Below are positions 9,123-61,905 of a DNA stretch of 64,000 nucleotides, piece by piece. Every line of letters starts with the position of its first letter. Position 1 is the first letter of the stretch. Source of the stretch: Nautilus pompilius (Eukaryota > Mollusca > Cephalopoda > Nautilida > Nautilidae); NCBI GenBank assembly GCA_018389105.1, contig JACATO010000321.1:740501-804500 (forward strand). Direction: 5' to 3'. The notes below the pieces were generated by a model. That model saw only the letters and a program-made list of their open reading frames with translations, was not told where the DNA came from and ran no database searches. Made by a program: the position numbers and the translations under genes.

Positions 9123-10006
9123 AGCTCGGCGGCGAGCTGCTAAATATAGACGACCTTGACACACCCCCCCCCCGCCCAGCCGAATTAACGAACCGGGAAG
9201 CCACACAAGCAAACAGACAGCGGCACCTGGTGGGCGGGGCTCGTGCTCCCGGCTGCCAGGTGACGTACTCCATTTAATTTTTATTAATAATAATAATAAT
9301 AACAACAACAACAACAAACAGTAGCAACATGAGCTGCTGCTGCTGTTACTATGTCGGAGGCAACATCTTGGTAAGGTTAAGGAGAAGGGGACACTGAGAA
9401 CCAGATGAGATGTGCCATTGTTGTGGCAACGTGTTAGGTAATGTCTCGTAACTTTCTGGAAAGAGATGACAGACTGATGAATACGCTCTGATAATTTGAA
9501 GACACACACACACACACACGGCCGCTTGTTGTTGTGCTGCTCTGCTTGCTTGCTGTGACCGGTTTTCGGAGGATGCGCCCCCCCCCCCAGTGCCCTGTAC
9601 CAACGATGCCCCAGTGAGCTCCAAGGAGAGAGGAAGCAGACAGACATGTAGACTGCAGCCATGATATAAAGAAATAAAAAAGGCAAAATTTATACCCACA
9701 AGAAGCTGTGTCAATTAACCTTTTACTTGCCACCTAAAAGTTTAGAGCCTTTTTTTTATTTTATTTTTTAAATTGATGTAACTGTAAGTTATGTGGAGTT
9801 ATCTTTCCTTTATATAGAGAGCGCGAGTTGGATTTGTTTATCATCAAAAACTCGTATGTAGAGGGCGCTGTTCAGCAAACCCCTCCGTTAACAGGGAGGG
9901 AGCCAATCGTAGACGTCGGTACAAAATTTAAATGTACGCTGAGGTTTGCGCGCAAATGAAGAAAAAGATATAGTTGTAGAGATCAGTGATCGCGTACCCG
10001 AGCAGG
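9123..10006. promoter_or_regulatory. Shared divergent promoter, SMP gene / NUSAP1
   Basis: The 884 bases between two divergent start codons. The half near the SMP gene is CpG- and C-rich, with C runs at about 9164-9174 and 9579-9588. The half near NUSAP1 has a CCAAT box (9903-9907), a GACGTC core (9912-9917), a TTTAAA element (9927-9932) 20 bases beyond the CCAAT box, and a perfect palindrome TTTGCGCGCAAA (9945-9956). CCAAT plus a nearby TTTRAA element is the usual layout of cell-cycle promoters bound by NF-Y and the DREAM/MuvB complex, which fits a mitotic gene. Simple repeats occur at 9283-9318 (AAT/AAC) and 9502-9519 (CA). Start sites are not determined. Confidence 0.6.
9502..9519. repeat. 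(CA)9 microsatellite in the divergent promoter
   Basis: Uninterrupted CA repeat of 18 bases. Confidence 0.9.
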
Positions 10007-10087
10007 ATGGAAGAGAATCTGGACACCATGAAATATTCGGAATTAAGACAAATGGCCAAGAGTTTTGGAATTAAAAGAAGAGGAAAA
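10007..10087 (+). CDS. nusap1: NUSAP1 exon 1 (start codon, first half of SAP domain)
   Basis: Codes for 27 residues from ATG 10007-10009 to the donor AAA|GTAAGT, phase 0. It includes K-Y-S-E-L-R-Q-M-A-K-S-F-G-I-K, the first helix of the SAP motif. The ATG follows directly on the CCAAT-containing promoter. Confidence 0.85.
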
Positions 10088-19000: not shown

Positions 19001-22000
19001 GATAGAAGACTATCACTGCCCAATTTAAGGTTATAAATATATATTTATTTTTGGTGAAATACTGACTTGTTGCTTCAATTTTCTAATGCTTATCGGGTAA
19101 GTTTTACCAGGGAGGAAAACCTAACTAACCATGATTTTAAAAAAGGATGAATGACTCCATTTTCATGGGTTTTTATTTCAGAAGCAAAACAGTGGGATAA
19201 AATCCATCAACAACAATTTGATCAGTTTGATTCAATTGATGATTATCTTAAAAAGAAAAGGAAGAGGATGCTGAGGCTGTGCACCCCAAAAGCAAGAAAG
19301 AATGCAGAGATGTGCCAGACTCCACAATCTCTTGTGGTAATTTCTTGGCTTTTAAAACTGCCTTTGTGTATTTAAAATTTGTGATGGCTATCATAGAGAT
19401 CTTCAGTGCTCTGCTGAATCAGAAATTGGAAGGAGATAGAATATATAATGGATTTGATTGGAAAGTAGGGGAGGTAACTTGTACAACTGGAACTAGTAAT
19501 TGTTTAAACTAGAATAAAGGAAGAGAGATGATGACACAGAATGAAAGATCAACAAACAATTTCAATATCAGGATTTAAATCACAAAACCATAATTAGATT
19601 TAAGACAAGATAGCATTTAAGAACTGGAGCACCAAAGAAATAAGATTGCATTTAAAAAAAAACTTTCAGTGGCATGTAAGATTTTAGGTTTTTCTCAATA
19701 TCTGAAAGTGTTAATTTCCAATTTTTACATTCATTCAGAGTTAACAGTTCTAATAAGTTAACAACCTCACCAAAACAAAATGTTTATTTTTGTATCCAAC
19801 TCTTTTCTGGTAAGTCTTGATGTGCACATGAGTGAGGATTTTTTAACACGCCCCTCATGAGCCAGGTGCTCACTGTATCGCTGGTACAAAACCCCAGGTC
19901 ACTGCGGAAAAAGAGATTTCATTTTTATTCTTTGTTTGAGAAGTTCTGCGGGCTGAGAGAAGCCGTTTGTTGCCCTCTATTTCATTTTCGGTGCAACACG
20001 TGAAAAATTATTGGAAAATCTCTTCCCCAGCTTCGTAGGTAGAAACTCTAGTGGAGCGTTAATAATGTCTGGTAAAAGGAAAGTAGTATTTCGAATTACT
20101 ATGCAATCAGTCCCGTGGCAGCGCTGGTGTTGTTCAAGGAAGACAGTCAGTCAGGTGAGCAGCTTTCCTACCGATGAAGAAGCTAACAGCTTTGTCAGTT
20201 CATGAAGCTGGAGCACAGGAGGCAGCGCACAGCAGGTGGTCAGAATTGATCATCCATGCCGTACTGCCTCGGGACTATATCTGCACACTTCAGTATACAT
20301 TTGTACTGTGTGCTACTGAAAATTCAAATGCTTTTAATATTTCCGTTTTTGACCCGAAAGATGTTTTGAAATCTTATGCAATACATTCAAATATCACCAT
20401 TATGGATGCTTCTGCAATGGCGACCTAGGGGGAATGTCAACCACCTCATAGTAAACAGTGGCTACCTGGCTTGTGAGGGACGGGTTAAAAAAAAAAAAGG
20501 AAATTATCCTAGACATTTCAGAATAATAATAATTTTATTTGTTTGGAAGAAATTGTACTGATGGAATAAAGACAAAATCCTTAATTCAAAATTTAAAAAA
20601 AATTACCACAAATAGTAGTATTTTAGGATTGATTGACTGGCCTTAATACTAACTTAAAAAACTAATTGAATGTACAACAAAGCCCAAGTTCTATGAAGTT
20701 GGAATTTTATAACAAACAGCTGACAAAACAAAAACATGGGTAGTAAACAATTGAGTCTCTTTTACTTTTATAATTCTGAGTAATATTCTTATTTGCCTTT
20801 CCATTGTCAGCCTGACAGTATTGGATAGTTGGTCTTCACTCTTCCAAAAAAATGGATCTTTAGTGAAAGATACAAAACTAAAATGAAATTTTGAAATATC
20901 TAAATTCTTTGAATTAAAATGTCTTAAATAGGATTAATATTATAAAATTAATGATAGACAAAGTAGTTATTCTAATAATAGTGACATAAATGATCTGTCA
21001 TTATTCCACGATATGCACCAATAATTCTGATCCTTGTAAGTGGTGGTCTCTTACAAAAAGTACTGGTATAATGCGCTCTCTATTTTTGTATAAGCTCATC
21101 TGATAGGTGTAATACATGTTGCTGAATTTAATTAGATAAAATGTTTGTGGTGTGTGTGATTTGTTGTTCTTTTCCAGAAGAGCAATCCATTATCTAGAAA
21201 ATCATCTTTTGAAAAGAAATACCCTTTAATAAGGAGTGCTATCCCAGGAATCACTGCTGAGAATCAACGCAGACAACTTTCTGGGGTTGACACAAACAAA
21301 AAATCTAGTGTGATGAGGTCAGCTTCAAAGCAATTATGTAGTATGTATTGTTATGTCATTTGTTTGATTGTAAAAGAAGTTACACATGTATCTAGTAGCA
21401 TGAAAGTGGTTATTTTTTTTTTAACCTTTGCATCACATTTAAATGAAGTCATAAATAATAAGTCTGAAATTAATAGATATTTAAACAAGCAGAAAATCAT
21501 TTCCAAACTTATAGACTGATTTAAAAACATGCCACCAGTTTTCAAGTTGTGTACAGTGTGAACAATTTATCTAAACCATTTGCAACAGTAAAATGCCATA
21601 ATAAAAGCAAGCTTGACTTTCACCTGAGGTGGTGCACCCTTACATTGTCAACTCTGGCTCTTGTCTGTAATGATGACATTCTTTCACATTAAGTGGGACA
21701 ATTGCACATATGCTGCTGCACCCATTGAGACTACAAGGCACGGTGCCCTGATGACAGAATAAGTCTGACACGTGAACATCTTGTAGACACCTGTATCTCA
21801 TAAATGATTATGCTCATTATCTAGGTCCACTGGGTCATATCTGTCTTTGAGCTGGAGCTGCTGCTGTGACTGTCACGGGCAGGAACTTGTTCCTTAGATT
21901 TGTATTGCAAATGCAGCAGTCTTTTTTTTACAGCAGCTGTCACTTGGTTATCTGCCACATGCAGTCGGAAGTCAAACATCTCAATATTCTAACCCACAGC

Positions 22001-25000
22001 CAAACAATGGTGATACGGTAACCGTTTTTTAGTCTTGCACCTTGCCTTGTTGATTGACCCACTTGAATTGTTCCTATAGCAGTTCTTTCCTTAAGATAAC
22101 TTAATGTTGGCATTGTTACTCAGATAGAAAAGGTGTGTGGTTTGTGGAAAAGAGAAGTGAATGTAATGGGAGTTTTGTGGTGGTAATCCCATTTATGGCA
22201 AATGTAGATCAGTGGTGCGGCTGAGCTGCGTTCGTTGTGGCGTTTCCAGTTTTATGACAGTTGTTGTTTTCCTTCACTTGATAAAAAACAAAGGGTTCAG
22301 CTGCAGTTTGTAAAATGTAGCAGACTGGTGAAAGGGTTGCTGAATCTATAAAATAATGCATGTAAAACTGATGTTTGTTTGTTTGTTAGCAGCACCGTTC
22401 ACACCCATGAGCGACAGGACACGTGCTGCCCTGAAGTCGGAGAAGAAGTTTGATTTGCTAGCCAGCTTGAGTCAGCCCCTGACATGGCAGCCGCACAAAG
22501 GGAAGTTGAAACCTTTTAATTCTCACAAATCACAGTACATGAAAAGTGGATTCGGTAAATGGAATGCAGAGGTTCAAAACAAAGAAAGGTAAATGACAAT
22601 AGCGTTGTAACTATGGTATTTCACACGTGCTTTTTATCGTTCACTGCCTTTGCGTACATGGTTTTGGTGATAGGACAAGTTTGGCAGGTGATAGAAGTGC
22701 AGTGTCAAATATTTATGTTTTATAGGTGTTTAAAATATTGAAAAAAAAGCAATATTGGAAATTGATAATTGTCAATGGATGACATTAACTGTGCAAATCA
22801 CATTCAGAAATGTATTAGATTAAACTATGAAAAAAAATTACTGTAAGGTGGGACTCAACTACTCCATCCCTTTAAGCTAATCCGTCTTGTATTGTTTCTG
22901 GTAACTTTAGATAGAAATGAAAAAGTATCGAAAATAGGAAGTAGCTTTACATTGGAATTTTTGTAAATACAACTTTCTTCCTTTGCATTAGTTTTACATA
23001 TAAATCAAATTGAGATATTAGGGTTCTTGGAAGGAAGAAACACACACACTAAAATTTTGTATATAATGGGCATGGGTCACTGTGTGTACAAGTTAAACAA
23101 AACAGGCAGAAGATCCAATGTTTGTTTAATATAATGTGCCTTACCATCAATACATTTGCTCCTTTTATCCTTCAAACTGTCTGCCAATTAGAAGTTGCTG
23201 ACTGCTTCAGCAGCCATGCCTCAGTATCCCTGATGTCTGACAATCATTTGCCATAGAGATGGTATTTAAGTTTCAGAACAAATAATGGTCATGAAGCCAA
23301 TCTGGACCATAAGTTAAGATTCATCTGCTTGAAGGTACATCCAGTTCATAGACTCAGGTTTACTATTGGGATGAATCTACATTTCAAGTTACCTAGTGAG
23401 AACAGAAATCTTGATTCAGACTGTTGGCATGGATTCTGAGCATCAAGGCACCCTGGACACCTAGTACAATTATGAATGATTGTCAGAATGATTCCATAAG
23501 ATGCACCAACTTCTGCTACAATGTCCTCAAACTTCATTCAGTAATCCTGTATTAACAATATGTGGATGATTGTTTCTTGGTTGATGGCAGTTGAAAGTTA
23601 CCTGGACCCTTGGTTTGGACTTGCAACTAGGCTTGAACTGAAACCATTTAGCTACTGTAAGAAGCAACATCAGTATACATGATTGTGGACTTTCTTTTTC
23701 TTATGCTCAGAAATAAGAAAATATTAAAAGCAAAGTTGTAGGTTTCATTTTATCCAAAAGCCATGGTTTTATGTAAAATTTAATTACTATGTTTCTGCAA
23801 ACTTAACTACTGCTCTCTAGTATTTCAAAATTTGATTTTATTCCAGATTTTTTTTTTGATGGAGATAAGTTTTGCATTTTTGCCTCAAATGAAAGCAGCA
23901 CACCTGTTAGCTATTATTTTAAAGACAGTTAATTAAAACAGAAGGTGCTACTTTTCTCAATTCTGTTATAGCCCATTGAATCCTGCTGGTTTACCAACCC
24001 CTGCCTCACCAGCTGCTGAATTAAGAGAAGTAAATATACCAGCAAAAAACTAAGTTTAACTTTGGGTTGAAATTACAAATCTATAAAAATGGGAGAGGTT
24101 TTGAAATGTTGCTAGGGGAGGGTATGGTTTATCGTTTACAGGTAAGAAACCTAATACAGGTGTTATATATTTAACATTCTAACAGATCAAATAGTCATTT
24201 TGACCTTGTTAATTTTACATTTAATATCAGAAACAAACAAACAAACACCAATGTGAAATCATGCTGCCTTCATGGTGGGGAACATACAGACAGTAGACAC
24301 AGTGCTACCTAAACCAAGAGCTGCCTGTTGACAGGTGATCGTGATACCAAATTGATATTCAGGTTACACTGGAAGTGAAAAGACTGACCCAAGACCTCCA
24401 TGGGTCATACCAATTTGCCTGGGTGAAGGTTTATGGACAGCTACTAAAAATCTCAATAAAAGTGATCATTTGCTCAGGGAATATAGGACCACAATATACT
24501 TCAAAAAACAATGAGCTATTATCACCAAGCCTATCCAGAGATGAATTCATGGAACAGTGGACAGGATCTAAGTTTTTAAAAACCAACCTGGGGACACCTG
24601 CTGTAACGATTGTGAGGTGTGGGGGTGTATGTTCCCTAGACTAGCAGTGGAGAACAGACAGTACGAGTCCAAGAAGGCCAAATTTTGAGTCTCTCTGGCA
24701 GTACCAAAGTTGAGGTCAGTAGGTGCATTAGGAAGTGTCTGAAATGGACTCTTCAGATGGCAATTTGCAATAACATCTGAGATGGAGTGAAATTTTGGAC
24801 CTGATAGTTGTAGGTGAGATGACAGCATGCCTAGGTTAAGTACCTTCTCTCCCCTGTTTTACCACCATAAGTAATGCCCACTAGTTGTAAACATGGCATA
24901 GGCATGCTAGTTTATTTTAAATGTCCAGCCCAAATAACATTTATCTTAAAACTCGGGTACTTGGCTTGATTTAGGTACCCAACATTCAGAAGGAATGATG

Positions 25001-30840: not shown

Positions 30841-33812
30841 CAGTGCTTCTTAAACTGGTGAATGACATTGTTTTGGGGGTCAATGAAGGGTGTTATGCAA
30901 TACACAGCTCAGACCAGACATTCTGATAGCTAGGCCCAGCTGATCAAACCGAATGAGTCACCAGCCTGGACAGACTACTGACACCAGTGATGTAATCCCG
31001 TCTGGCCCACAAGGCTATAAATGCCCAGTATTTTGTCTGCCTGGAGACTGTCCCCCCTCCATACTGATGGACCAGGACAGAGGGAACCTGTTACAACAAA
31101 GGGTGAATGACTTAATTTACTCTGATAGATATTTATATTTTTTTTATATTTAAAAAGTTATTTGCTATGTATATTTGAATGTCTGTAGGCTAAACAAGCC
31201 TTGGTTTAATTGCTTTAAAAGTTACCACAGTTTGTGTGAAAGTCAGTTCAATTATTTATATACAAAATAATTTTAAAAAAATTATTTGCTACGTTTATTT
31301 GTTTGGAAGAAGCTAATCCAAATTATCAATTGCTTTAAAAGTCACCATGTCTTTGTTGAAGTACCTAAAGAAACCAGCTCTAGAGGAAGAGTTTGCAGAA
31401 GGAAGTAGTTCATTTCTGAAAGAAAGTGGAACAAACAGGACTCAAGAAGAGATTTGTTCAGGAGACAAGTCACTTGTGAAGGGTGACAAGGAAACTGAGG
31501 ATAAGGAGCTTAAAAATGTAGCTAACCATATGTTACAGATGATGACTCTGTTAATGATACTGGCAAGGAAAAATTTAATCTCAAGAGCAAATACAAAGAC
31601 CAAAGTACCCTCTCCTCAAAACTTGAAAGAAATTGGAATGAAGAATATATCAACTATGGCTTTTTCCTTCCCCAAGATGAACTAACAAGCCCTACTCCCA
31701 GAGCTCAGTGCATGTTTTGCAGTGTAAAATGTAGCAACCAGTGCCTGGCTCCTTCAAAATTAGACTCATTTACGAACAAAGCATAGCAATCATCAAAATA
31801 AGTCCATACAGTTTTTCTAAAACACTTGAGCATTTGTGGAAGCAGCAAAATTTCTTCCAATTGATGGTAAAGAAAGACTGACTAAAAAAAACTTCTTCTT
31901 GCCTCTTTACAAATAGCACGTGTGCTCATGAAAGAAAAAAAGCCATACACAGAGGCTGAGAAAGTTGTCAAACCATGTTTGAAATTGTTACCACCAATCT
32001 ATTACATGGTGGAAAGCAAGCAGTCAATATAGTAGTGCAAATTCCTTTGTCCAATGACGCAATGAAACTTCGATCTACTATGATTGCTGAAGATTTGAAG
32101 CATTAGCTGATGGCAAAACTGTTGGAAGCACCATTTTTTGCTCTGCAGTTTGATGAAACCACAGACATTGGGAATGATGCACACAACTCATTGTGTATTG
32201 TTGTTTCCTGGATCAAAGCTTGGGAAAAATTGTTGAGCATATCTCTCTTGTTTGCCTGTCAGAGAGCAAACTACAGTTGAATTTATTTTCTCCAAGGTTG
32301 ACAAATTCATGGAAAATGAAAGTCTACCTTGGAGCAAATGTGTTGCTGTGACTACAGGTGGTGCTGCAGCCATGGTGGGGAAGCATAAAGGAGCCACCGC
32401 TTGCATCAAAGAAAAATTCCAGAATTACGCCTTTTTACACTGTTTACATTGGGAAGTGCTGGTTGCCAAGAAACTGAACACTTGTTGCAATGATCAGAAA
32501 AATGAATTGGAATAATTGTTGCAAGATATGGTGAAAACTGTCAACACTATTCGCCAACAAGCGCAAAAATGTCGGTTGTTTTCAGAGCTATGCAAGGACA
32601 TGTCTGCAGATCAAATGATTCTCCTCCTGCATTCTGAGGTTTGATGGTTGTCATGTGGAAGAGTTCTTGAAAGAATACTGTTCCTGAAGAATGAACTGTC
32701 TATTTTTACTGAACTAGGTGACGTGAAAGCAATGCATTTCAACAATGATTTTTGGCTGGCCAAATTGTACTACACGACTTCCATTTTTGAACATTTCAAT
32801 CGGCTCAACTTGTCACTTCAAGGTAAAGGAGGTGACATTTTCGATGTCCTTGCAAAAATAGAAGCCATAAAAATGAAGATCACCATGTGGCATAGTAACA
32901 TTTGGAAAGCTTCCTCAAAGAATGTGAATGGGAAGAAAAACAACCTGATTTGGAGAAAACACTGAAGGACATTTCTAACCATCTGCAGTTGCTGTCTAGA
33001 AATTTTAAAACTTATTTTCCTCAGAAGCATCTGCAGGACTTGGAAAATCAGATGTGGATAGTTAATCCTTTGAGCACCAGCCACATCAAGCGTGCAGATG
33101 TTGGGGAAATGTCAGAAGTGTTGATGGAGCTTCATTATGACTTCACTCAAAAATCATCTTTTGAGATGTACTCCTACTATGGAAACTATTGGGTTGGATT
33201 ACTTGCTTTCCCTGAATAAAAATCATTTGCCTTGAAGGCCCTTTAACCAGTAGTCATGACGACGACAACTTTCCTGTCTGAACAAGGATTATCGACCTTG
33301 GTAGAATTGAAAAACGAAATTCACTTCACTATGTTGATTCGGTAATGCAGGTTGCTTTGGAGAAGGAAATTGAACCTCGGTTCGAGAAGCTTGTCACAGG
33401 AGTACAGGAACATCCCAGTCACTGATGATGAAAAACACATGCACATGTAGAAGTATACTGCTTGTCAATTTTTTTGGTAAACATACACAATAAGAAAACA
33501 GTTCCTAAGAATCTAATAATGACACTGTTTACTAACTTAATTCTAATAGTTTTTCTGTGTTAATTTTTTTTGTCACTCCAAGTTTTCTCTATATATTTTT
33601 AGGATGTTGAAAAACTTGAATAAAATAAACGCTTAAGAAATGAGTTAATTTGTTTTTTGCTCATGTGACAAAATGAATTATATATAAAATTATACACAAG
33701 GGAGAGTAAGACTAAAATTACCAAAAACATAAGGAAATTTAGTTGTGGGTGAATGAAATTTTGTGATAAAGACTCGAGGGTGAACGACACTGAAATAGTT
33801 TAAGAAGCACTG
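30841..33812 (+). mobile_element. hAT transposon (ZBED5/SCAND3-like), decayed but with both ends
   Basis: The element is 2972 bases long, bounded by a perfect 16-base terminal inverted repeat CAGTGCTTCTTAAACT at 30841-30856 and its complement at 33797-33812, a classic hAT end. The flanking octamers GTCTAAGG and TTAATAAG no longer match well. Transposase pieces lie in order on the plus strand: an N-terminal leader (31347-31640); a BED-type zinc finger region with G-F-S-F then C-M-F-C (31640-31760); P-F-F-A-L-Q-F-D-E-T-T-D near 32130-32165 with the first catalytic Asp; C-V-A-V-T-T-G-G-A-A-A-M-V-G-K-H (32335-32390); two middle frames (32648-32965, 32902-33219); and the C-terminal dimerisation motif L-S-E-Q-G-L-S (33268-33290). 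Stops and frameshifts separate these pieces, so it cannot make transposase. Confidence 0.92.
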
Positions 33813-33958: not shown

Positions 33959-34071
33959 ATGAATGAGCAGAGTTCAGCACCAATGTCAACCGCCACCGTC
34001 AGTGTAGATCTAGAAAATGCAATGCAGCCTGTTGTCTGTGGGTGGATTGAAGAATCGACCCTTTCAGAAAA
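33959..34071 (+). CDS. NUSAP1-like exon 1
   Basis: ATG 33959-33961 starts 37 codons plus two bases (M-N-E-Q-S-S-A-P-M-S) to donor GAAAA|GTAAGT. A Met at codon 9 is an alternative start. An acceptor-like ATTGTCAG ends just upstream at about 33952. The peptide is acidic and has no SAP motif. Confidence 0.5.
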
Positions 34072-34233
34072 GTAAGTTAAGCTGGAGTTTCGTGCATAAA
34101 CCAAGTTGGCAAGATGACTAATATTTTTTTTTTTTTTTTTAAGGGAAAGAAAATTGATTTTTTTATTATACTGCCAGTTTACCCGGTAATTTAGTTAAAC
34201 AGTCCTAAAAAGCCTCTTTGGAGAAAAATAAAG

Positions 34234-34324
34234 ATACAATGCAGAAGTTGCACATGCCCATTCCATTATAAGAAAGACTGTGGAAAAAGGTCAGGAAATA
34301 TGTGGATCTGAAGATTCAACACAG
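34234..34324 (+). CDS. NUSAP1-like exon 2
   Basis: Open in the phase left by exon 1, ending at donor ACACAG|GTAAAT in phase 0. It codes for 30 residues including I-I-R-K-T-V-E-K-G-Q-E-I. The acceptor (AAATAAAG) has a poor polypyrimidine tract, which lowers confidence. Confidence 0.4.
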
Positions 34325-35101
34325 GTAAATTCCTGTATTTCATCCTTAAATATCTTTCAATCAGTTGTTTAATAAGATTGTGAATGATTCCTTGTGATGG
34401 CTTTCTTCAGCTTTGTCAATAACATTCCATAATGTTCATGAATTTGGTTGAAAATCAATTTTGTGGTTATTCTATAATTACTAGTTAGTAGTAATTCTAA
34501 CACCAAGGGATATTTTGGAACCAGTCAAAATCTGACTTATCAGACAATTGGTTTTTCTAAAGTTATCAAAGACACTTAAAATAGCAGAATCATGTGAATC
34601 TAATTTTAAACTTTTTCTGCCAAAAAAGGGATATTAAGAATGAATTTATCTTTTCATAAGAGGTTTTCAGAAGACTTCCTTCGATACATTATTTAATAAT
34701 TAATGTCAAGGTAAATCTTTCCAACACTAGACTATGCTGAGAACCAGATATCACAAGACAATGGCTGTTTCTATCCATGTGCTAACTGGATGTGATTAAG
34801 TAGACAGAAGATGGAAAAAAAATTTTTTTAGTGGTTAGTGGGAGAACAGAGAATCACTTAACTTCTATTCCATTCTCCTAAGCAATTTCATGAATATGGT
34901 ATTCTAAGGTATTAATCATATTATGGTACCTGCTGTTTTTTCAGCTGGATGACCTGCAAAGTGCAGTGTCAAAAAATTAATCTCAGTTGAATATGTAAAT
35001 ATTATTGACCAATTATTTAAAAAATTGTCTATAAAGTGCAAATATAAAAAATCTCTCAGTGCATTCAAACAAGTGCTATCATTAAATTAATAAAAACTTC
35101 C

Positions 35102-35302
35102 TCAAATACTACTTAGAAATGAGTAATTTCCTTCTGCATGTTCTGTGAACTCGAGGATATCATAGAGATCATGGGAGTTGTAAACCAAATTTGCATATCT
35201 TGAATTTGATAAGTAGCTCAACCTTTGGTTTGAATTACCAGATTTAACAGAACCACTTTTTCGACATTGCTTTTGACTATGAATGACTTCAGAAGTGTAC
35301 AC
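35102..35302 (-). CDS. Antisense coding-like frame, copy A
   Basis: A 66-codon minus-strand frame from Met. The frame is also open about 20 codons further upstream (reading R-P-I-G-H-N-K-T-I-Q-W-L-Q-V). It ends near F-L-S-S-I before TGA. It contains R-L-S-Y-L-S-N-S-R-Y-A-N and Y-D-I-L-E-F-T-E-H-A-E, which look like real protein sequence. I do not recognise the family. It may be the end of an unrelated gene or a retrocopy caught in a NUSAP1-like intron. Confidence 0.35.
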   Translation of the reverse strand: MYTSEVIHSQKQCRKSGSVKSGNSNQRLSYLSNSRYANLVYNSHDLYDILEFTEHAEGNYSFLSSI

Positions 35303-35449
35303 TTGTAACCATTGAATTGTTTTGTTATGACCTATTGGTCTTATATTTTATAGCTGTTTTGGCTGAACAGCAATGCATTGTAGGGTGATCTTAGATTCTG
35401 GTAACCATCTGCAGGTTTTTCTTGTCTGCTAATGTTTTTCTCTTTCCAG

Positions 35450-35504
35450 AAAAAACGGGTTACAACAGATGAAAGAGTGAAAAAATTTCATTACAAAAAT
35501 ACTG
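35450..35504 (+). CDS. NUSAP1-like exon 3, copy A
   Basis: A 55-base exon with acceptor TTTCCAG|AAA and donor ACTG|GTAATG, phase 0 in and phase 1 out. It codes for a basic segment starting K-K-R-V-T-T-D-E-R-V, comparable to NUSAP1 exon 4, and keeps the same phase-1 junction to the next exon. Confidence 0.6.
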
Positions 35505-35677
35505 GTAATGACCGATTTTCAAAATCTAATGCAATAACTTCTACTTAACACATCTTAGCAGCGAATGAGTTAATTTGTATTCAGTGTTTAATAATACTAA
35601 CTTTTTGTCCTAACTAAACATTAATTCTAAAACTTTTGTATGAACCTAAGAGTAACCAACAGAAAAATTTTTTGTAG

Positions 35678-35896
35678 GAGAAAACAGATGGGATAAAATT
35701 CATCAGAATCTTTTCAATGACTACTGGGAAAGGAGGAAGATGAGAATGCAGAAGTTTCACTTGCCAGTTCCACAGAGAAAGCAAAATACCAAAAAGCTGG
35801 GAAATCTGAACTCTGTAGTCAGACTCTGCAAAAATACGGATAGAAGTGAACATGAAAATGACCCTGATTCTTCTAAATCTGAGGAAAGAAAGTTAG
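35678..35896 (+). CDS. NUSAP1-like exon 4, copy A (helix partly deleted)
   Basis: Acceptor TTTTTGTAG|GA and donor TTAG|GTAAAT, phase 1 to phase 1. It codes for G-E-N-R-W-D-K-I-H-Q-N-L-F, then N-D-Y-W-E-R-R-K-M-R. Compared with copy B it has lost 18 bases, removing six residues of the Q-F-D-S-I-D helix in frame. The rest of the 72-codon exon is nearly the same as copy B. Confidence 0.7.
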
Positions 35897-36468
35897 GTAA
35901 ATATCCATTTCACTTCATCAATGTATTTGGCATCTGAAAATCGGGTGAAATTACAAAATAAACCTTGAAATATGCTTGGATGGTGCTGTAGCTCTCTTGC
36001 TAGGAAGACTAGAAACAACTTTGCATGTCTTGGCTGCACAGAATGTTGTCAGAACCTATAGATCACTATTAATTTTTCCTCTAATTTCATTAGAAGTAAA
36101 AAAGAAAATCTCAAAAGGTATAGAATTGTCTTGTCATGATTGTGTTTAAAATTTAATCAGTGTCACAAATTCTATTGAAAAAATAAATGAAAACTTTCCA
36201 TATTGTACTTTTGATGGTGAGGTTTTGACAGTTTGTGCTGTACTTATAAAATCAGAATATTAAATGCTGTGCCTAATTTGAAAACTAGTTTGCATTTTTA
36301 TGAATTTATAACCTTTCCTACAAAGACTTTTCTGAATTACCCTGTACAATTTTTTTTGCATCAACTAAAAAACCTAATCATTTTTCAACTTATGAAAATG
36401 AAGCAGAATCTGTGCCTGTGAGTAAAGAATATCACCAAGATTACATGCTACATTTCTAAAACTAAATC

Positions 36469-36995
36469 CCCCTGAATTAATTTCTTAACGTCTTCTGCAT
36501 TTAAATTAGAAGATGCCAGCCAAAACTTAATGCTCAACAGGCATTAAAAATTCTGTGTATGTGAAAATGTTTCTCTTTGAAGATGATCCAGATGAAATGT
36601 GTATGAACTCTCCTGTTACAGATAAAAAAGGGGACGATGGTTCATTTCAACCTAAATTACCTGGTCAGAATAGAAAGGTAATTGAAAATGATGACTTTTG
36701 TGAGAAATCTTGCTGAAGGAATAATTTTTCTTATTTTATGTTGAAGCTTCAAAATGCTGTATTATGCTCTTCTGAACCACTAACTTTTGTTTGTGTTTTG
36801 TGACCCAACCAACGGTTCAGTGGCTCGGTCGTGTGCATGACGTTCAGAAGTCATTTGAAGAGTGACACAGGTTAGTTGTAACACGAGACTATATAGATTA
36901 CAAGTAATACATCTAAGAACTAGGGTAAAATGACCTAACTTTCAATTTCTTGGCATTTTAAAATTACTGAAGCATTTGGACTTTTCATAATTAAA
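36469..36995. repeat. Direct duplication, copy A (right part)
   Basis: About 527 bases matching 42577-43085 with more divergence and small deletions than the left part. It contains NUSAP1-like exon 5. It follows copy A (left) by only 18 bases, while its partner is 3.9 kb from copy B. Confidence 0.85.
36583..36677 (+). CDS. NUSAP1-like exon 5, copy A
   Basis: A 95-base exon with acceptor TCTTTGAAG|AT and donor AGAAAG|GTAATT, phase 1 in and phase 0 out. It codes for D-D-P-D-E-M-C-M-N-S-P-V and a basic end. It has no counterpart in the NUSAP1 model. Confidence 0.55.
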
Positions 36996-37262
36996 GACTG
37001 ATTAAGGCTGTCAGTTTGAGAAAAATGTAGGATATAAAAGGATCCTTTCAAATAACTTTGCTTCATTATGTCCAATGAGAGTTTTTTTTTAAATAGTATT
37101 GGAAATCATTTAATATCTGTATAGAAATATATGTAGCAGCTGCTGCTTTTAAATATGTCTTTTTATTGGCTTGGCTTAACCAAAATTGTCTATAAAGTGC
37201 AAATATAAAAAATCTCTCAGCACATTCAAACAAGTGCTATCATCAAATTAATAAAAACTTCC

Positions 37263-37466
37263 TCAAATACTACTTAGAAATGAGTAATTTCCTTCTTCTG
37301 CATGTTCTGTGAACTCAAGGATATCATAGAGATCATGGGAGTTGTAAACCGAATTTGCATATCTTGAATTTGATAAGTAGCTCAACCTTTGGTTTGAATT
37401 ACCAGATTTAACAGAACCACTTTTTCGACATTGCTTTTGACTATGAATGACTTCAGAAGTGTACAC
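37263..37466 (-). CDS. Antisense coding-like frame, copy B
   Basis: Copy of the frame at 35102-35302, 67 codons. It differs by one inserted Glu codon, one Leu/Ser change and a silent change, so the frame survived in both copies. No family recognised. Confidence 0.35.
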   Translation of the reverse strand: MYTSEVIHSQKQCRKSGSVKSGNSNQRLSYLSNSRYANSVYNSHDLYDILEFTEHAEEGNYSFLSSI

Positions 37467-37611
37467 TTGTAACCATTGAATTGTTTTGTTATGACCTATT
37501 GGTCTTATATTTTATAGCTGTTTTGGCTGAACAGCAATGCATTGTAGGGTGATCTTAGATTCTGGTAACCATCTGCAGGTTTTTCTTGTCTGCTAATGTT
37601 TTTCTCTTTCC

Positions 37612-37666
37612 AGAAAAAACGGGTTACAATAGATGAAAGAGTGAAAATATTTCATTACAAAAATAC
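37612..37666 (+). CDS. NUSAP1-like exon 3, copy B
   Basis: Same exon as 35450-35504 with two amino-acid changes (T-to-I and K-to-I); splice signals and frame are intact. It enters in phase 0, so it can follow exon 5 copy A directly. Confidence 0.5.
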
Positions 37667-37839
37667 TGGTAATGACCGATTTTCAAAATCTAATGCAATA
37701 ACTTCTACTTAACACATCTTAGCAGCGAATGAGTTAATTTGTATTCAGTGTTTAATAATACTAACTTTTTGTCCTAACTAAACATTAATTCTAAAACTTT
37801 TGTATGAACCTAAGAGTAACCAACAGAAAAATTTTTTGT

Positions 37840-38076
37840 AGGAGAAAACAGATGGGATAAAATTCATCAGAATCTTTTCAAACAGTTTGACTCAATTGAT
37901 GACTACTGGGAAAGGAGGAAGATGAGAATGCAGAAGTTTCACTTGCCAGTTCCACAGAGAAAGCAAAATACCAAAAAGCTGGGAAATCTGAACTCTGTAG
38001 TCAGACTCTGCAAAAATACGGATAGAAGTGAACATGAAAATGACCCTGATTCTTCTAAATCTGAGGAAAGAAAGTT
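37840..38076 (+). CDS. NUSAP1-like exon 4, copy B (full helix)
   Basis: Same exon as 35678-35896 but with the complete F-K-Q-F-D-S-I-D-D-Y-W-E-R-R helix, which aligns with NUSAP1 exon 5. Donor TTAG|GTAAAT and phases are kept. This is the ancestral form; copy A has the deletion. Confidence 0.65.
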
Positions 38077-39389
38077 AGGTAAATATCCATTTCACTTCAT
38101 CAATGTATTGGCATCTGAAAATCGGGTGAAATTACAAAATAAACCTTGAAATATGCTTGGATGGTGCTGTAGCTCTCTTGCTAGGAAGACTAGAAACAAC
38201 TTTGCATGTCTTGGCTGCACAGAATGTTGTCAGAACCTATAGATCACTATTAATTTTTCCTCTAATTTCATTAGAAGTAAAAAAGAAAATCTCAAAAGGT
38301 ATAGAATTGTCTTGTCATGATTGTGTTTAAAATTTAATCAGTGTCACAAATTCTATTGAAAAAATAAATGAAACAATTATTTTTAAAAATCTTTTTTTTT
38401 TTAACTGCCTTGTGAAACTTTCCATATTGTACTTTTGATGGTGAGGTTTTGACATTTTGTGCCGTACTTATAAAATCAGAATATTAAATGCTGTGCCTAA
38501 TTTGAAAACTAGTTTGCTGTTTTATGAATTCATAACCTTTCCTACAAAGACTTTTCTGAATTACCCTGTACAATTTTTTTTGCATCAACTAAAAAACCTA
38601 ATCATTTTTCAACTTATGAAAATGAAGCAGAATCTGTGCCTGTGAGTAAAGAATATCACCAAGATTGCATGCTATGTTATAGATGTTGTATTTCTATAAT
38701 AAATAAAACTTCTATTTCATTTTACCTTGTTTACAATTCTGTGACTACTACTTTCCTAACATTTAAGTTACCAGCTGGAAGTGATATATTTGATAAGTTG
38801 CATAGTTTGCTTGCATTGTAAATGTCTCATAAATTGACACATCAAATATCTATTTGTAGATTATCAAACAATTATATATTGACATATTTTAACAATCTGA
38901 TATCCAAGATCTACTTCCTGAAACCTTTTAAAGTGTTATACTGCTGTTCATAATACCACTTTGTCATATTTCTTCATTTTGGAGAGGTCATGTGACTCTA
39001 GCATTGTGAAATTTCAAGGTCACATGACTAAGCACGCATTTCTTAAAGCTGCTGTGATGACTGACACTGATCATGTCATGAATGGGATATCACAGAAAAC
39101 TAGTAAGTATATTTTTAATACATCTAAAATAAATTAGAATTGATATTAATAAATTTAATCTATGCTGTTGAATGATTATAATAACCATTTGAATGAAATG
39201 CCTATTCAAACAGTCCCTTAGAATGTGAAAGGCAGTATTCATTCTTATGTACATAAATCCAAAATTAATTAATTCTGTTTAAAAAGTTTTTTTTTTTTTT
39301 TAAATTATTTCTGTAGCAGAATGTTATTTTCATTTTCTTTCTGTTTTAGGTTGGTGTTGTAGAGTTGCAAAGCTAAATTCAGTAATGAC

Positions 39390-39540
39390 ATGAGGAAAAT
39401 GTATGCTAAAGGAAGAGGAACTAAATTGTGTAGACTGAAAGAAATTACAGAAAAGAGGAAAAGGCTTAACCAGATGCTAACACCAATACCATCTTCTGAA
39501 AAGTGGTTTGAGCCCCTCAATCTCTGGAGAGAGCTGTGAA
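39390..39540 (+). pseudogene. Coding-like fragment, unidentified
   Basis: After an acceptor-like TGTTTTAG at about 39349, a plus-strand frame from ATG 39390 reads M-R-K-M-Y-A-K-G-R-G-T-K and continues through R-L-K-E-I-T-E-K-R-K-R-L to a TGA near 39538. It looks like protein rather than random sequence, but is too short to assign. Confidence 0.3.
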
Positions 39541-39964
39541 AAGAATAACCATCTTTCTGCATTGCTTTCAAAATAAGGTCAAGTCATACAGGGAATCATC
39601 TTGTTTCTCCTCCAGCTAGAAAATAAAATGACCAATAATACGAGTCATAAGAACAGTCTCTGCTGAAACTGGAACTTGTAAAAGATATCTATTCTGAAGA
39701 AAATTTTGTATAATTGCATCTAGGAAAAATGCAGTAATGACAGTGTGAAAGTAAAGATCAGAAATAATACCTAACACTTCTGGGGGAAGTTTACTGCCTG
39801 TTCAAAGATGTTCATCTTGACATTACACTAATATTAGATTCTCTAAGCTTGTCTCTTAAGCCACGATCAACCAGCTTATCAATGTAAATGTCAAAAAAAC
39901 AGGATAATTTTATTCTGAGACTAAAAGCAATGAGTGTTGCTTGCACCAAAGATTTCTTGCTAAT

Positions 39965-40084
39965 GAATCTGTGAGAGATAATCCCAATCATAGTTGCCAG
40001 AGTAGAATCTGTGAGAGATAATCCCAATCATAGTTGCCAGAGTAGAATCTGTGAGAGATAATCCCAATCATAGTTGCCAGAGTA
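39965..40084. repeat. 40-bp tandem repeat, three copies
   Basis: Three identical 40-base units starting at 39965, 40005 and 40045, beginning GAATCTGTGAGAGATAATCC. Confidence 0.97.
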
Positions 40085-41373
40085 GAATGTGAGGAGTGCA
40101 AGAATGGTAGGAATTTTGTTCAGAGTATAGAAACTGAAAACATTTGGAAATTTTGGTCCAAGGATGGTTGGAACTAAAAGTGAGTGTTTGGAGTGAGATT
40201 GTTAAAGTAATCACTTATGATTTTTGCGTATTTCAAGAGCATGTAAGGGATTAGTCTAATGCTCTTTCATTAGAGACTAATTTATTGCCAGTGTAAGTGT
40301 GCTTCAATGCAACTTTGCTGTGGCTTACAGCTGCTAATAAATACCAAGTGAGATGCGTTATGGACACAAAATAGTTCACACCTTGACAGATCATGTAAAT
40401 CATATTTGATAGTGACTGATAGCCAGGACAAGGAAAGAATAGTATTTACTTTTTGCATGAACTACTTCCTACTGTAGATCCAGCTAGTTTGTATGAGGAT
40501 CTCACCAACACTGATGGCCCATCTGAATTGATGCAGAACATCTCAGTACACCAACCTAGACTGAGATTGGTGATTTCTTTGAGAGACAAACCCCTGGTCA
40601 AGTGTCCAAGATATAGTAGGCATCAGCGGAATACATTACATGCGATGTTGTGAGAAGGGCACCGTAAAGTTTTGCAAGAAAGGTAGAGGCATAAAAAGTT
40701 GTATTGCTTAATATTGTACATTGAAGAATGGGCAGAATGTTGTAGTAGTGGATTGGGCTGCTGTTGATTGACTGGAAACACTATCCAGGCGAAGTGACAG
40801 GTAACTGAAAATGGTCAGATCATGAGAATAAAATATTCCACCAATGAATGGGTTTCTCAAGAAAATTAGTCCACTAATCTCAGCTGGTTCATGCAGACAG
40901 TTCAGATTTGCTGTTGAAATTTAATTTTAAACTGTATATTTTATTTTAGGAAACTGTAGGACATCAGGTAATTATGGTTTTCATTATTTTCTTACTATTG
41001 TAAGAAATATATTTTATGATTATCATAGAGATGCATTTCTATGATAATGTAAGTTGTTACTTCATCTGGACAGAAAAGTGAATCTAACACAAGAGGTATG
41101 TAATGTTAAGCATTACTTTTGCCAGGACCATGAACAATTCACTGATTCCACTTGATACTGATTTTCTTGCTTTGATGATGTTTATCTGCTTCAGGTTTTA
41201 GTGATATGAATATTTTAGACTTTTGTTACAACCATTTTGTTGCATTTTGATTTCTTTCTAATGGCTATACTGTGCCAAACTCAGTTTGAGTGTTTACAAT
41301 TCAGAGTATTTCAAAATCTGAAACTGGTTGTAAAATTCCTTGCTTATTTTCTGTCTTGCAGTAGCATTTGATA

Positions 41374-42436
41374 TTAAGTTGTTTCAAAGGTTTTGTTAGC
41401 TTTTTTTACAGCAACAATGAGACTTCATGTCATTTCTGAACACTAAGTTCCATTACAATCCATACACTTCTGCCAACAAGTTACAAGTGCATTTATACCA
41501 AACTGTTGGAAGACTGTTCCAATTGTTTGGTTGGTGAAGGATTTCATTTGGAGGAAGCTGTCGATTCACCAATTCCAGCTGTTGTTGGGTGATTTTCTGA
41601 TCAACAACATTTAATTCACAATGGTTTTGCCAGGCTGCAAGAAGTTGTAGTGGATGACACCAGTTGCAATCCACCAGACAGTAACCATGACCTTATTTGG
41701 GTGGCGGCTGGGTTTTGGAATGTGGTTAGGAACCTTGTTTCTCTCAAGCCACTGTACTGTGCCGATTGTTTGCAATTGTCATAAAGGATCCATTTTATCA
41801 CAATGATTTGGTCAAGAAATGGATAGTTTGTTTGTTTTGACAAATGAAGAGCAGATCTCCAATTAATGATTCTGTTGTTCATTCAACTCGCGAGGCACCC
41901 ACTTGTCGAGCCTTTTCACCTTTGCTGATTGCGTCAAGATGCTGGGAAACAGTTGCAGTGCTCACGTCAAGCTCTCCAGCAATTTCACGCACTGTTTTTC
42001 CTGGATCAGCTTCAACTGTGGCTTTCGGATGGTCATCATAGGTGGAAGGACATCTGTTACATTCCTTACCTTCAAGGCTCACATTTGATCGAAACTTTGA
42101 AAATCATTGTTGTACCATGCACTCATTTGCTGTGTCCTTGCCCCGTGGTCCCTTAATGTTTTGAGTTGCCTCCTCACTCTGTGGCCTGGTTTGAACTCGT
42201 GAAGCAAAATGGCACAAAAAACTTTTCTATCCCTGCTTCACTCAGAACCCTGAAACAAATATCCATTTGATGATTTTTAAAAAGGGAGGTTTTGCATAAT
42301 GTATGCCAAAGCACACTACAAAACAATATATATATATATATATAATTTATCCACATACACCTTCACAAGCATGCTAAAAATGTACCCCAAATTAACATAA
42401 TATATAAAAACCAAGAAAACTTTTGTAACAACCTAA
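41374..42436 (-). mobile_element. Mariner (SETMAR-type) transposon, decayed, with both ends
   Basis: The right end reads inward TTAGGTTGTTACAAAAG and the left end reads TTAAGTTGTTTCAAAGG, imperfect inverted repeats of the mariner type. Each end is flanked by TA (41372-41373 and 42437-42438), as expected. Minus-strand transposase pieces, in shifting frames, include the helix-turn-helix (V-R-E-I-A-G-E-L-D-V-S-T-A-T-V-S), W-V-P-R-E-L, K-W-I-L-Y-D-N, P-N-K-V-M-V-T-V-W-W and E-S-T-A-S-S. The C-D-E preceding K-W-I-L-Y-D is lost, so a catalytic Asp is missing. At 1063 bases it is shorter than a full 1.3-kb mariner. Confidence 0.9.
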
Positions 42437-42576
42437 TATTGTTGTTCATGATAGTACTCTAGGATATTTTGGCACCCATTAACAAGTTTCATGAAACAAA
42501 CAATGACTGAGTTTGATTAATATAGTTTAATAAAATTGTGATTTTTCTTTGTCCTTTGAGCCGTTTCTCAATGAAT

Positions 42577-43085
42577 GGCCCTGAATGAATTTGTCTTAAC
42601 GTCTTTTGCATTTAAATTAGAAGATGCCAGCCAAAACTTAATACTCAACAGGCATTACAAATTCTTTACATGTATGTGAAAATGTTTCTCTTTGAAGATG
42701 ATCCAGATAAGAAAGGACGATGGTTCACATTCAACCTAAAACACCTGGACAGAATAGAATAGAAAGGTAATTGAAAATTTATGAAAATGATGATTTTTGT
42801 GAGAAATCTTGCTGAAGGAATAATTTTTTATGTTGAAGCTTCAAAATGCTGTATTGTGCTCTTCTGAACCACTAACTTTTGTTTTTGTTTTGTGGCCTTC
42901 CAACTGTTCAGTGGCTCAGTTGTGTGCACAACATTCAGAAGTCATTTGAAGAGAGACCCATTAGTTGTAACACGAGACAATATAGAGATTATAGGTAATA
43001 CATCTAAGAACTGGGGTAAAATTACCTACCTTTCAATTTCTTGGCATTATAAATTATTGAAGCATTTGGAGTTTCATAATTAATC
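42577..43085. repeat. Direct duplication, copy B (right part)
   Basis: Partner of 36469-36995, with small deletions. It holds the broken copy of NUSAP1-like exon 5. Confidence 0.85.
42699..42766 (+). pseudogene. NUSAP1-like exon 5, copy B, frameshifted
   Basis: Acceptor TTTGAAG and donor AAAG|GTAATT remain, but relative to copy A it has a deletion of about 27 bases plus further indels that shift the frame. In the incoming phase it meets TAG before the donor. A transcript using it would end here. Confidence 0.65.
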
Positions 43086-43193
43086 TTTGGATATGTATCA
43101 GTTTATGAAAACATCATCTATTGACAAGGATCATTAAAATTTTTATTCTGGTTAGGGCCTAATGGCAAGATGTTTTTTTTATCTATTTTTTAG

Positions 43194-43334
43194 AAATGTA
43201 ACCCAAAGCTGCTGCTTGTGGATGAGTGTCTTGGTAGGCCAGTGAGAAGCAAATCTAATAGTAAATATCCAAAGAGTATTAAAAAGATGGTGCCAAGATT
43301 TACATCAACTGCTAAAAGTTTAAGATTACTTTAA
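43194..43334 (+). CDS. NUSAP1-like exon 6, terminal
   Basis: Acceptor CTATTTTTTAG|AAA enters in phase 0, the phase left by exon 5 copy A. It codes for 46 residues (K-C-N-P-K-L-L-L-V-D-E, later S-K-Y-P-K-S-I-K-K-M-V-P-R-F-T) and stops at TAA 43332-43334. It resembles NUSAP1 exon 6 in position, phase, opening K-x-N-P and K-Y-P motif. Nothing like NUSAP1 exons 7 or 8 follows. Confidence 0.55.
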   Translation, partial: KCNPKLLLVDECLGRPVRSKSNSKYPKSIKKMVPRFTSTAKSLRLL

Positions 43335-48085: not shown

Positions 48086-48384
48086 ACACTTTCGGATATT
48101 TGGCATTTCAAAGTTTGCACACAATTTCAGTTGTAATTCATGGTGAAGGCAAGCTATCATTTCATTGGTCGTGTGAACACTTTCGGATATTTGGCATTTC
48201 AAAGTTTGCACACAATTTCAGTTGTAATTCATGGTGAAGGCAAGCTATCATTTCATTGGTCGTGTGAACACTTTCGGATATTTGGCATTTCAAAGTTTGC
48301 ACACAATTTCAGTTGTAATTCATGGTGAAGGCAAGCTATCATTTCATTGGTCGTGTGAACACTTTCGGATATTTGGCATTTCAA
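48086..48384. repeat. 91-bp tandem repeat, 3.3 copies
   Basis: Units start at 48086, 48177, 48268 and a partial one at 48359; each begins ACACTTTCGGATATTTGGC. Copies are nearly identical. Because 91 is not a multiple of three, each unit is read in a different frame, which explains the repetitive open frames here. Confidence 0.97.
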
Positions 48385-50502: not shown

Positions 50503-50721
50503 TCAGCATGGTGATTTTCCTATGACCATGTTTTGAGCACATGTCAAAGGTAGTTTCACACCTCTTTCTAGTAGATTGACGATTTCGTGGCAACAATTGC
50601 AGCAAGCTGCGAAAGGGCTGATGAGAACGTAGAGTATGGCACAAAAGAAGCCTATAGGCCAGCCAAAGATGAGAAGAACTAGAAACCAAATCAGGCTCCA
50701 AAACCAACCACAGTTTGCCAT
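50503..50721 (-). CDS. Small cysteine-rich membrane protein, copy A
   Basis: A 72-residue protein in one coding exon, starting M-A-N-C-G-W. Residues about 7-35 are strongly hydrophobic with an F-G-W-P-I-G-F turn in the middle, suggesting a re-entrant loop or two short membrane helices. A C-C-N-C-C cluster at 40-44 could be palmitoylated. The tail has G-V-K-L-P-L-T-C then N-M-V. It is about 64% identical (46 of 72) to the copy at 61591-61809 on the same strand. A conserved acceptor TTTTTCAG lies 34 bases before the ATG, so a 5'UTR exon exists further right. I do not recognise a named family. Conservation between the copies shows it is a real gene. Function unknown. Confidence 0.85.
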   Translation of the reverse strand: MANCGWFWSLIWFLVLLIFGWPIGFFCAILYVLISPFAACCNCCHEIVNLLERGVKLPLTCAQNMVIGKSPC

Positions 50722-50755
50722 CTTCTGAAGCTTCTCTTAGCAACCAGTGATGGAA
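50722..50755 (-). other. 5'UTR part of the coding exon, copy A
   Basis: 34 bases between the acceptor CTGTTTTTCAG|TTCC and the start codon. It shares GCTAAGA and CAGAAGATG with the same place in copy B, so the spliced leader predates the duplication. Confidence 0.7.
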
Positions 50756-52442
50756 CTGAAAAACAGAAAATACTATTTAAACTCGTAGTAAAGCTATTCC
50801 TTAAAATGGGTATAGTTGGTTCGGCTAATTTTGACTCTAAATCTTTGCATGTCCAAAAATGTCCCAGGAGATCCCAGCAAAATTATTTTTTCTTTAAAAA
50901 CAAATTAAACTAAACTTGTGCTGGACTCGTTTTGATGGTACTAACTTAATACTTTTGTTTGTACTCCTAATATAATTCATCAGTAAACAGATGTCATATT
51001 TTCTCATGAATGATTGATATAAACCACATTAGTTTAGATAGTGACAAAAGAATCAGTGGATTTGGTGTACAAAATGGTATAACAACTTCATCACACTCTA
51101 GGTATTGGCATTTGTAATACTGATATGACTCACTGTAGTTGTAGAATCTCTAAATACAAAAACATGGCCAATAACCATTTCAAGATGGCAGCATCATGTA
51201 GTGTCTTATATAATACATCCAAAATAACTAATTTAAAATTATTTAGTTTGGATTTTTACAACTTTGTTCTTATCTACAGTTTACTTTTCAGCCAGTAAAA
51301 AGGTAATCGAGATAATAATGAAAATTCCTAATGCATTTGAAAGGATCGTGCATTATGTAAAAATGTCTCAGATAATGTTAGTGACATAAAATAAGTTTAA
51401 AAATTTAATCTCTAAATTGAAATCTTAAAAATATAAGTGCTAAAGATATCAAAAAGTAATTGTGAATAAAGAAAAATGTTGGCTATATCAAATATGTTTG
51501 CATTAATTGCATAATCAGAATAAGAGCTCAAATTTCAACCAATTAAATATATGATTTAAATATTGTGATAGCTAAAATGTTTTAAATTACTTTTCCAGCA
51601 CAGAACTTTCACAATGAAGTAAACAGAACCAACAATTACAATGCAATCCATACTTTTCTAAAGTTTCATAATGCAAAGTACAGAACAAATAAACAGAGGG
51701 TATGATCACAATCACAACAAAATGTCTAATTTTCAGTTTGATTTTACTTTCTAAGTAAAACAAACCAAGTACAGAACATGGATGGTATGATTAAAGTCAC
51801 AAGGAAATTACTCTAATATTCATAATGCTGTAGGGCATCCTAACATTTTTCTGAGAATATTAGAAATTCTAGAATTTATGTAGCTATTTTGTTTAATTCT
51901 TAATTATAAAATGTGTTGTTTCATATGAATGAAAGAATTACATTTTTTTTAACATCTATTTTTTCAATGAAAAGTTTAAAACTCTGCAAATTATAATAGG
52001 TCCTTAGATATTCTAGTCTATAACCCATCTTAAAAATTCTTGGATTTTGGAGACATGCTAAAAATCAAGTTGACAGCCAACGTTAATTTTTGCTACTCTG
52101 ACCATCTCGTTGCTTCTCCACACTTGAATCCCTGGGATGAGCTTGATAACTACGTCGCCAGCCAGTGTCAGATACATTAGGAACTTTTGACAGAAAGTGT
52201 GGAGAAATGTGAGCACACGAGATGCAATGCTAGTCCATAAAGCACGGTGGTTTCATCTCTGACTTACTTATCACACAATGTAACATCTACACACATTTAT
52301 AAGAGAACTTTCCAGCAAATATATTAAACATGGTTGATGTAAGTTCTTTTGAAGAATGTGTGCATGTGGGGCCAAGGCTGCAATCATTAATGAAACAGTC
52401 CAACATTGCATCTTGTGCTTCCACAGCATACTAAAAAGGACT
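50756..52442. other. 5' intron or flank of small membrane gene A
   Basis: AT-rich sequence upstream of the gene A acceptor. I cannot identify the first exon or promoter. No other feature seen. Confidence 0.4.
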
Positions 52443-61590: not shown

Positions 61591-61809
61591 TTAACAGGGA
61601 GCTTTTGATGACACCATATTTTCAGAGCAGGTCAAAGGTAGTTTTACTCCCTTTTCCAGCACATTAACTACTTCAGTACAAGCACCACAGCAAGGTCCAA
61701 AAGGGCACAGAAGCACATAAAATACCACACAGATGAATCCTATAGGCCATCCAAAAAACAGGAGAGCAATAAGCCACAGTATGCTCCAAAGCCAACCACA
61801 GTTCGCCAT
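61591..61809 (-). CDS. Small cysteine-rich membrane protein, copy B
   Basis: A 72-residue paralog of the protein at 50503-50721, same strand, 11 kb away. It keeps M-A-N-C-G-W, the F-G-W-P-I-G-F turn in the hydrophobic segment, three of the four clustered Cys (C-C-G-A-C), E-V-V-N-V-L-E-K, G-V-K-L-P-L-T-C, N-M-V and the final P-C. Most differences in the membrane part are hydrophobic swaps (I/L/V/F), as expected under selection. An AATAAA lies about 10 bases past the stop codon and could be its poly(A) signal. Function unknown; a membrane or trafficking role is inferred from hydrophobicity only. Confidence 0.87.
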   Translation of the reverse strand: MANCGWLWSILWLIALLFFGWPIGFICVVFYVLLCPFGPCCGACTEVVNVLEKGVKLPLTCSENMVSSKAPC

Positions 61810-61840
61810 CTTCTGAGGTTTTTCTTAGCACAAAGGAGAA
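61810..61840 (-). other. 5'UTR part of the coding exon, copy B
   Basis: 31 bases between acceptor TATTTTTCAG|TTCT and the start codon, matching the leader of copy A. Confidence 0.7.
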
Positions 61841-61905
61841 CTGAAAAATACTTTTAAAAAGAGGAATACATTTAAGAAAAAATGTGATGTAAAAATGAAA
61901 AAACT

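Follow-up and report, generated by a model that had tools for sequence, protein, structure and literature searches.

The region downstream of NUSAP1 in Nautilus pompilius is best explained as a decaying cluster of NUSAP1-derived pseudogenes that probably has no present function, a reading to which we assign a probability of roughly 0.6. The window analyzed was a 64,000-nt stretch of contig JACATO010000321.1 (positions 740,501 to 804,500), and all coordinates below refer to it. A single truncated paralog had originally been predicted at 33959-43334. Its placement beside the parent gene was confirmed, with the upstream gene found about 7 kb away and a second WDKIH-type exon matching PF16006, and its origin from NUSAP1 and its missing ends also stood. 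The single-gene model did not, as it passes over a second, near-identical copy, relies on the one whose motif is broken, and begins with two exons that have no homology support. It is a mosaic in which the coordinates are those of copy A and the motif is that of copy B.

RESULTS

NUSAP1 and its surroundings

NUSAP1 lies between 10.0 and about 27 kb on the + strand, and those of its exon borders that have no splice score were read by eye from the sequence. The first coding exon (10007-10087, +) encodes the N-terminal half of the SAP domain; it was located by tblastn with human NUSAP1 (E 0.007) and scored below the Pfam SAP cut-off (16.1 versus 23.9 bits). The WDKIH/DSIDDY exon (19182-19336, +) was assigned from its splice sites and from a PF16006 match of 29.2 bits (cut-off 26). 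It is followed by an exon starting at 21178 (+), by the core NUSAP exon (FDLLASLSQPL...PHKGKLKP; 22390-22588, +, borders approximate), which matched PF16006 at 46.5 bits, and by a tail exon near 26.86 kb (+). The window is CpG-poor (G+C 35%, CpG observed/expected 0.32). A CpG-rich stretch at 8.5-10.2 kb overlies the start of NUSAP1 with a ratio of 0.90, compared to 0.36 at the supposed 5' end of the downstream copy. Low CpG overall with such an island would suggest vertebrate DNA.

A frame in a NUSAP1 intron (11532-11780, +) carries a faint echo of the downstream part of the WDKIH exon (scan score 43 at 11670; tblastn E 0.46) and had no match in one Pfam scan. Head-to-head with NUSAP1 lies a frame with hydrophobic stretches (8763-9689, -), probably a neighboring gene, in which Pfam identified nothing. 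Scans of the window returned zero Rfam families at the gathering score and zero tRNA.

Duplicated blocks downstream of NUSAP1

Self-comparison showed that 35021-36450 is repeated at 37182-38674 (block X, both +) and that 36453-36994 is repeated at 42564-43083 (block Y, +). Copy A of block X, as delimited by alignment with copy B, comprises flanking sequence, exons A1 and A2, and introns. Aligned over 1,429 sites, the two X copies show 13 differences (0.91%), and 4 gap events account for 65 columns. The two Y copies show 43 differences over 496 sites (8.7%), and their 12 gap events span 70 columns; the contrast in divergence is highly significant (Fisher P 7e-16). About 746 consecutive nt of block X are free of substitutions (P 0.0009 if substitutions were placed uniformly), and its homology stops at the start of a 3.9-kb stretch (38675-42563) that separates exon B2 from exon Y2. 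Both features are compatible with gene conversion.

The 3.9-kb stretch holds degenerate mariner-type frames. Those at 41446-42237 (-) are fragmented and are presumed to be of the mariner/SETMAR type. One of the four pieces scanned with Pfam matched a generic helix-turn-helix model, barely over the cut-off (HTH_5, 22.7 versus 22 bits), and no transposase family reached the cut-off in any of the four. A tandem array with a 40-bp unit (39965-40088; 3.1 copies, 100% matches) lies within the same stretch. Upstream of the blocks, degenerate frames at 31300-33450 (+) are taken to be hAT-like transposases (ZBED/SCAND3 type), and none of the five pieces scanned passed a Pfam cut-off. Elsewhere in the window, a second tandem array with a 91-bp unit was observed at 48086-48384 (3.3 copies, 100% matches), as was a repeat in two diverged copies (50525-50763 and 61613-61848; 72.8%) with related minus-strand frames that had no Pfam match.

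Two copies of the WDKIH/DSIDDY exon

The WDKIH/DSIDDY exon was predicted to be kept in the paralog. It is intact in exon B2 (37842-38078, +), which is absent from the earlier model, whereas the exon named there, A2 (35678-35896, +), lacks DSID (WDKIHQNLF-NDYW). Copy A2 reads WDKIHQNLFNDYW and copy B2 reads WDKIHQNLFKQFDSIDDYW. B2 is 42% identical to the NUSAP1 exon and scores as a member of the NUSAP family (PF16006, 27.7 bits, E 2.9e-6, cut-off 26); the Pfam scan of A2 gave no NUSAP match. Since the longer form is common to B2 and NUSAP1, it was deduced that 18 nt were lost in A2. This deletion preserves the frame, and the two copies otherwise show 0 substitutions over 219 aligned sites.

The phases of this exon match NUSAP1 only in part. 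The copies and NUSAP1 share a 5' border in phase 1, but the 3' end is in phase 0 in NUSAP1 (19336) and in phase 1 in the copies, where the added exon Y1 restores phase 0. The suggestion that the central helix is kept is doubtful for A2. The structure of B2 predicted by AlphaFold2 from a three-row alignment, which is of low confidence (mean pLDDT 64.4, pTM 0.31), places helices at 4-14, 19-32, and 50-63; in that prediction the stretch that A2 has lost (residues 14-19 of B2) forms the first turn and its edges. Searched against solved structures, copy B gave no match with an E value of 1 or below.

Flanking and terminal exons

Splice scores were built on consensus frequencies. By these scores A1 and the last exon have good acceptors, and A2 and Y1 middling ones. 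Exon A1 (35450-35504, +; KKRVTTDERVKKFHYKNT) runs from phase 0 to phase 1 and has an acceptor in the best 1.2%. Between it and its partner B1 (37614-37668, +) there are two substitutions, both of which alter residues. The added exon Y1 (36583-36677, +; DDPDEMC...GQNRK) runs from phase 1 to phase 0 and is open; it had no Pfam match and no further tblastn match of note. Its copy Y2 (42698-42766, +) is broken, with bases lost and gained, a shifted frame, and, in the B2 frame, a TAG only 4 bases short of its end. The Y exon copies differ at 9 of 64 sites, compared to 34 of 432 in the flanks (P 0.15), and the exon has a further 33 gap columns, so that there is no sign of coding constraint between the copies.

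The proposed last exon (43194-43334, +) is open for 46 codons and ends in TAA. It had been matched to the exon that follows the WDKIH exon in NUSAP1, with which it shares the starting phase and K-x-N-P. However, its local score against the exon at 21178 was reached by 87 of 1,000 shuffles, and its derivation from NUSAP1 is unsupported.

At the proposed 5' end, exon 1 (33959-34071, +) is an open frame whose donor scores well (best 2.3% of 3,369 GT sites), with no homology found in the self-comparison and no Pfam match. Counted by a simple rule, the interval 43.4-64 kb has 1 open stretch from ATG to donor on one strand and 2 on the other, versus 2.0 per strand in resamples, and stretches like exon 1 are, by that rule, no rarer than by chance. 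Exon 2 (34234-34324) has a donor in the best 1.3% of the 3,369 GT sites, and its acceptor is poor, being equalled or beaten by 79.8% of 3,983 AG sites.

Exon 2 also overlaps what is probably an older, degraded piece of the WDKIH exon (34221-34324, +), detected by six-frame peptide scan as EKNKDTMQKLHMPIPL followed by a stop and ER. Exon 2 reads this scrap in another frame, while the homologous frame carries the stop. The scrap was the top match outside the copies in the ungapped 24-residue six-frame scan (score 52, followed by 43 and 30) and gave a tblastn E of 0.083. It is graded as probable because the nucleotide signal is weak, with a local score of 40 that 2 of 606 control windows also attained and 42 of 72 matches compared to 39 at the next site.

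The predicted absence of the SAP domain, core, and tail downstream was upheld to the extent that tblastn gave no convincing copy. For SAP the best match had an E of 2.0, the half-SAP exon of the window being the one SAP exon used as a separate query. The core motif (FDLxASLSxPL...PHKGKLKP) was found only in NUSAP1, with the next downstream match at E 0.91 and on the opposite strand. The tail query, which is very short and comes from an exon read in a provisional frame, gave a best E of 0.85.

Coding history

Divergence from NUSAP1 was estimated by Nei-Gojobori counts. Over the first 30 codons, pS was 0.84 and pN was 0.22 (bootstrap pN/pS 0.12-0.56), which points to past constraint. The values were 0.88 and 0.33 over all 50 aligned codons (bootstrap pN/pS 0.24-0.57), 0.90 and 0.46 over codons 23-50, and 0.89 and 0.12 over the 18-codon W-to-Y core, which was picked for being conserved. 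Synonymous sites are saturated and the helical core is conserved; this pattern shows constraint on both lineages jointly and mostly in the past, and does not bear on the copy today. As regards present selection, the A and B copies were too similar to each other, the Y exon was no more conserved than its flank, and the comparison with NUSAP1 speaks for the past alone.

The full proposed spliced chain is open over 714 nt (237 aa), and the chain of four exons A1-A2-Y1-last runs for 169 codons without a stop. Under simulated substitution-only drift (1,000 runs at each rate), the chain stayed open in 49% of runs at 0.02 per site, 19% at 0.05, 5.4% at 0.09, and 0.7% at 0.2. If the chain is dead, its death was therefore probably recent. 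Candidate disabling changes are the frame break in Y2 and the stop in the 34.2-kb scrap, whereas the A1-A2-Y1-last chain is open. The paralog was probably coding for a long time and lost its constraint recently.

DISCUSSION

From the observed copies, deletion, frame break, and divergences we infer the following history, together with past coding and a present lack of function. An old duplication would have carried part of NUSAP1, at a minimum its WDKIH exon, to a position downstream, and this copy may have evolved its own neighboring exons during a long coding life. A three-exon unit (A1, A2, and Y) would later have been duplicated in tandem, and the 3.9-kb stretch with its mariner-type element would have arrived between B2 and Y2. 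The X blocks were probably homogenized recently via gene conversion, or may alternatively stem from a recent separate duplication of X, and the A2 deletion would be younger than the homogenization. The outcome would be the present state, with part of the motif lost in A, a broken frame in Y2, and a probable older scrap at 34.2 kb.

That the locus is decaying was deduced from the A2 deletion, the higher divergence of block Y than of block X, and a Y exon no better conserved than its flanks. It is further supported by the residue changes between A1 and B1, the 746-nt run, the lack of a convincing SAP, core, or tail copy, the poor acceptor of exon 2, and the past constraint seen in the comparison with NUSAP1. 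Counting against decay are the 169-codon open chain, the frame-keeping deletion and absence of substitutions between A2 and B2, the good acceptors of A1 and the last exon, and the good donors of exons 1 and 2. Of these, the open chain, the frame-keeping deletion, and the good acceptors also fit the main rival, a living, lineage-specific truncated gene in which A1-A2-Y1-43194, with the proposed or other 5' exons, would encode a putative short NUSAP-like protein, perhaps one that binds a partner of the helical segment in competition with NUSAP1. The compatible phases of its four exons and the core conserved against NUSAP1 also speak for such a gene. We nevertheless consider it rather unlikely, as the motif is damaged in the very copy used, the first exons have no homology support, the last exon has no demonstrable homology, and the CpG ratio at the 5' end is well below that at the NUSAP1 start, although it is still compatible with a promoter. 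A putative lineage-specific, NUSAP-like mini-protein with one or two WDKIH segments and without the known binding regions, which would be expressed, regulate NUSAP1 or serve as its decoy, and be maintained by gene conversion between A and B, appears improbable.

An even smaller chance is given to a gene that carries its module twice, with A1-A2-Y1-B1-B2-Y2 in one transcript, where the second module would supply the intact motif and the stop would lie in Y2. All six exons are phase-compatible and open up to the TAG near the end of Y2, but this compatibility is automatic when the duplicated unit both starts and ends in phase 0, Y2 is broken, and nothing supports the join of Y1 to B1. Least credible, if by little, is that assembly error partly accounts for blocks A and B, in which case two haplotypes were placed end to end and one exon copy is polymorphic for the deletion. 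Heterozygosity can attain a divergence of about 0.91%. However, the Y part follows A directly but not B, the partner Y block lies 3.9 kb off and is far more diverged, and the window contains zero N.

The favored reading of decay places the locus among unprocessed tandem-duplicate pseudogenes, which retain introns and a partial exon set, carry indels and transposon remnants, and lie beside the parent gene. The downstream copies resemble these in every one of those respects; they differ in that one chain is open and two copies were probably homogenized recently. They share with NUSAP1 the WDKIH/DSIDDY exon and the phase of its 5' border, and copy B matches the family in Pfam, but no convincing SAP, core, or tail exon accompanies them. 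No literature was found on a NUSAP1 paralog arising by tandem duplication, and such a paralog was also absent from the broader literature among the matches listed. In one scan of prokaryote contigs for relatives, 46 sequences matched the pattern and none of them was confirmed, which is the expected outcome for a gene of animals. A parallel exists in Astyanax/Psalidodon fish, where nusap1 is listed among the genes on B chromosomes in the excerpts of PMC7976721 and PMC9454733; the likeness lies in nusap1 sequence beyond the ordinary locus in an animal genome, and the difference is that nusap1 is B-linked there, whereas here an old local fragment would lie beside its parent gene.

As to what such a fragment could do, the domain map in PMC10093842 gives human NUSAP1 a SAP domain and assigns microtubule binding to residues 243-367 and a charged helical domain to 407-432, and by that map even a living product would be without all three. 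Such a product, provided that it is expressed, would set apart a conserved piece of NUSAP that none of the domains on that map covers. In the human protein, the segment matching the WDKIH exon begins at residue 187 and its helical part ends near 215, outside both 243-367 and 407-432. As a remnant, the locus would be an ordinary case of a tandem duplicate breaking up, in which homogenized and freely diverging parts contrast visibly.
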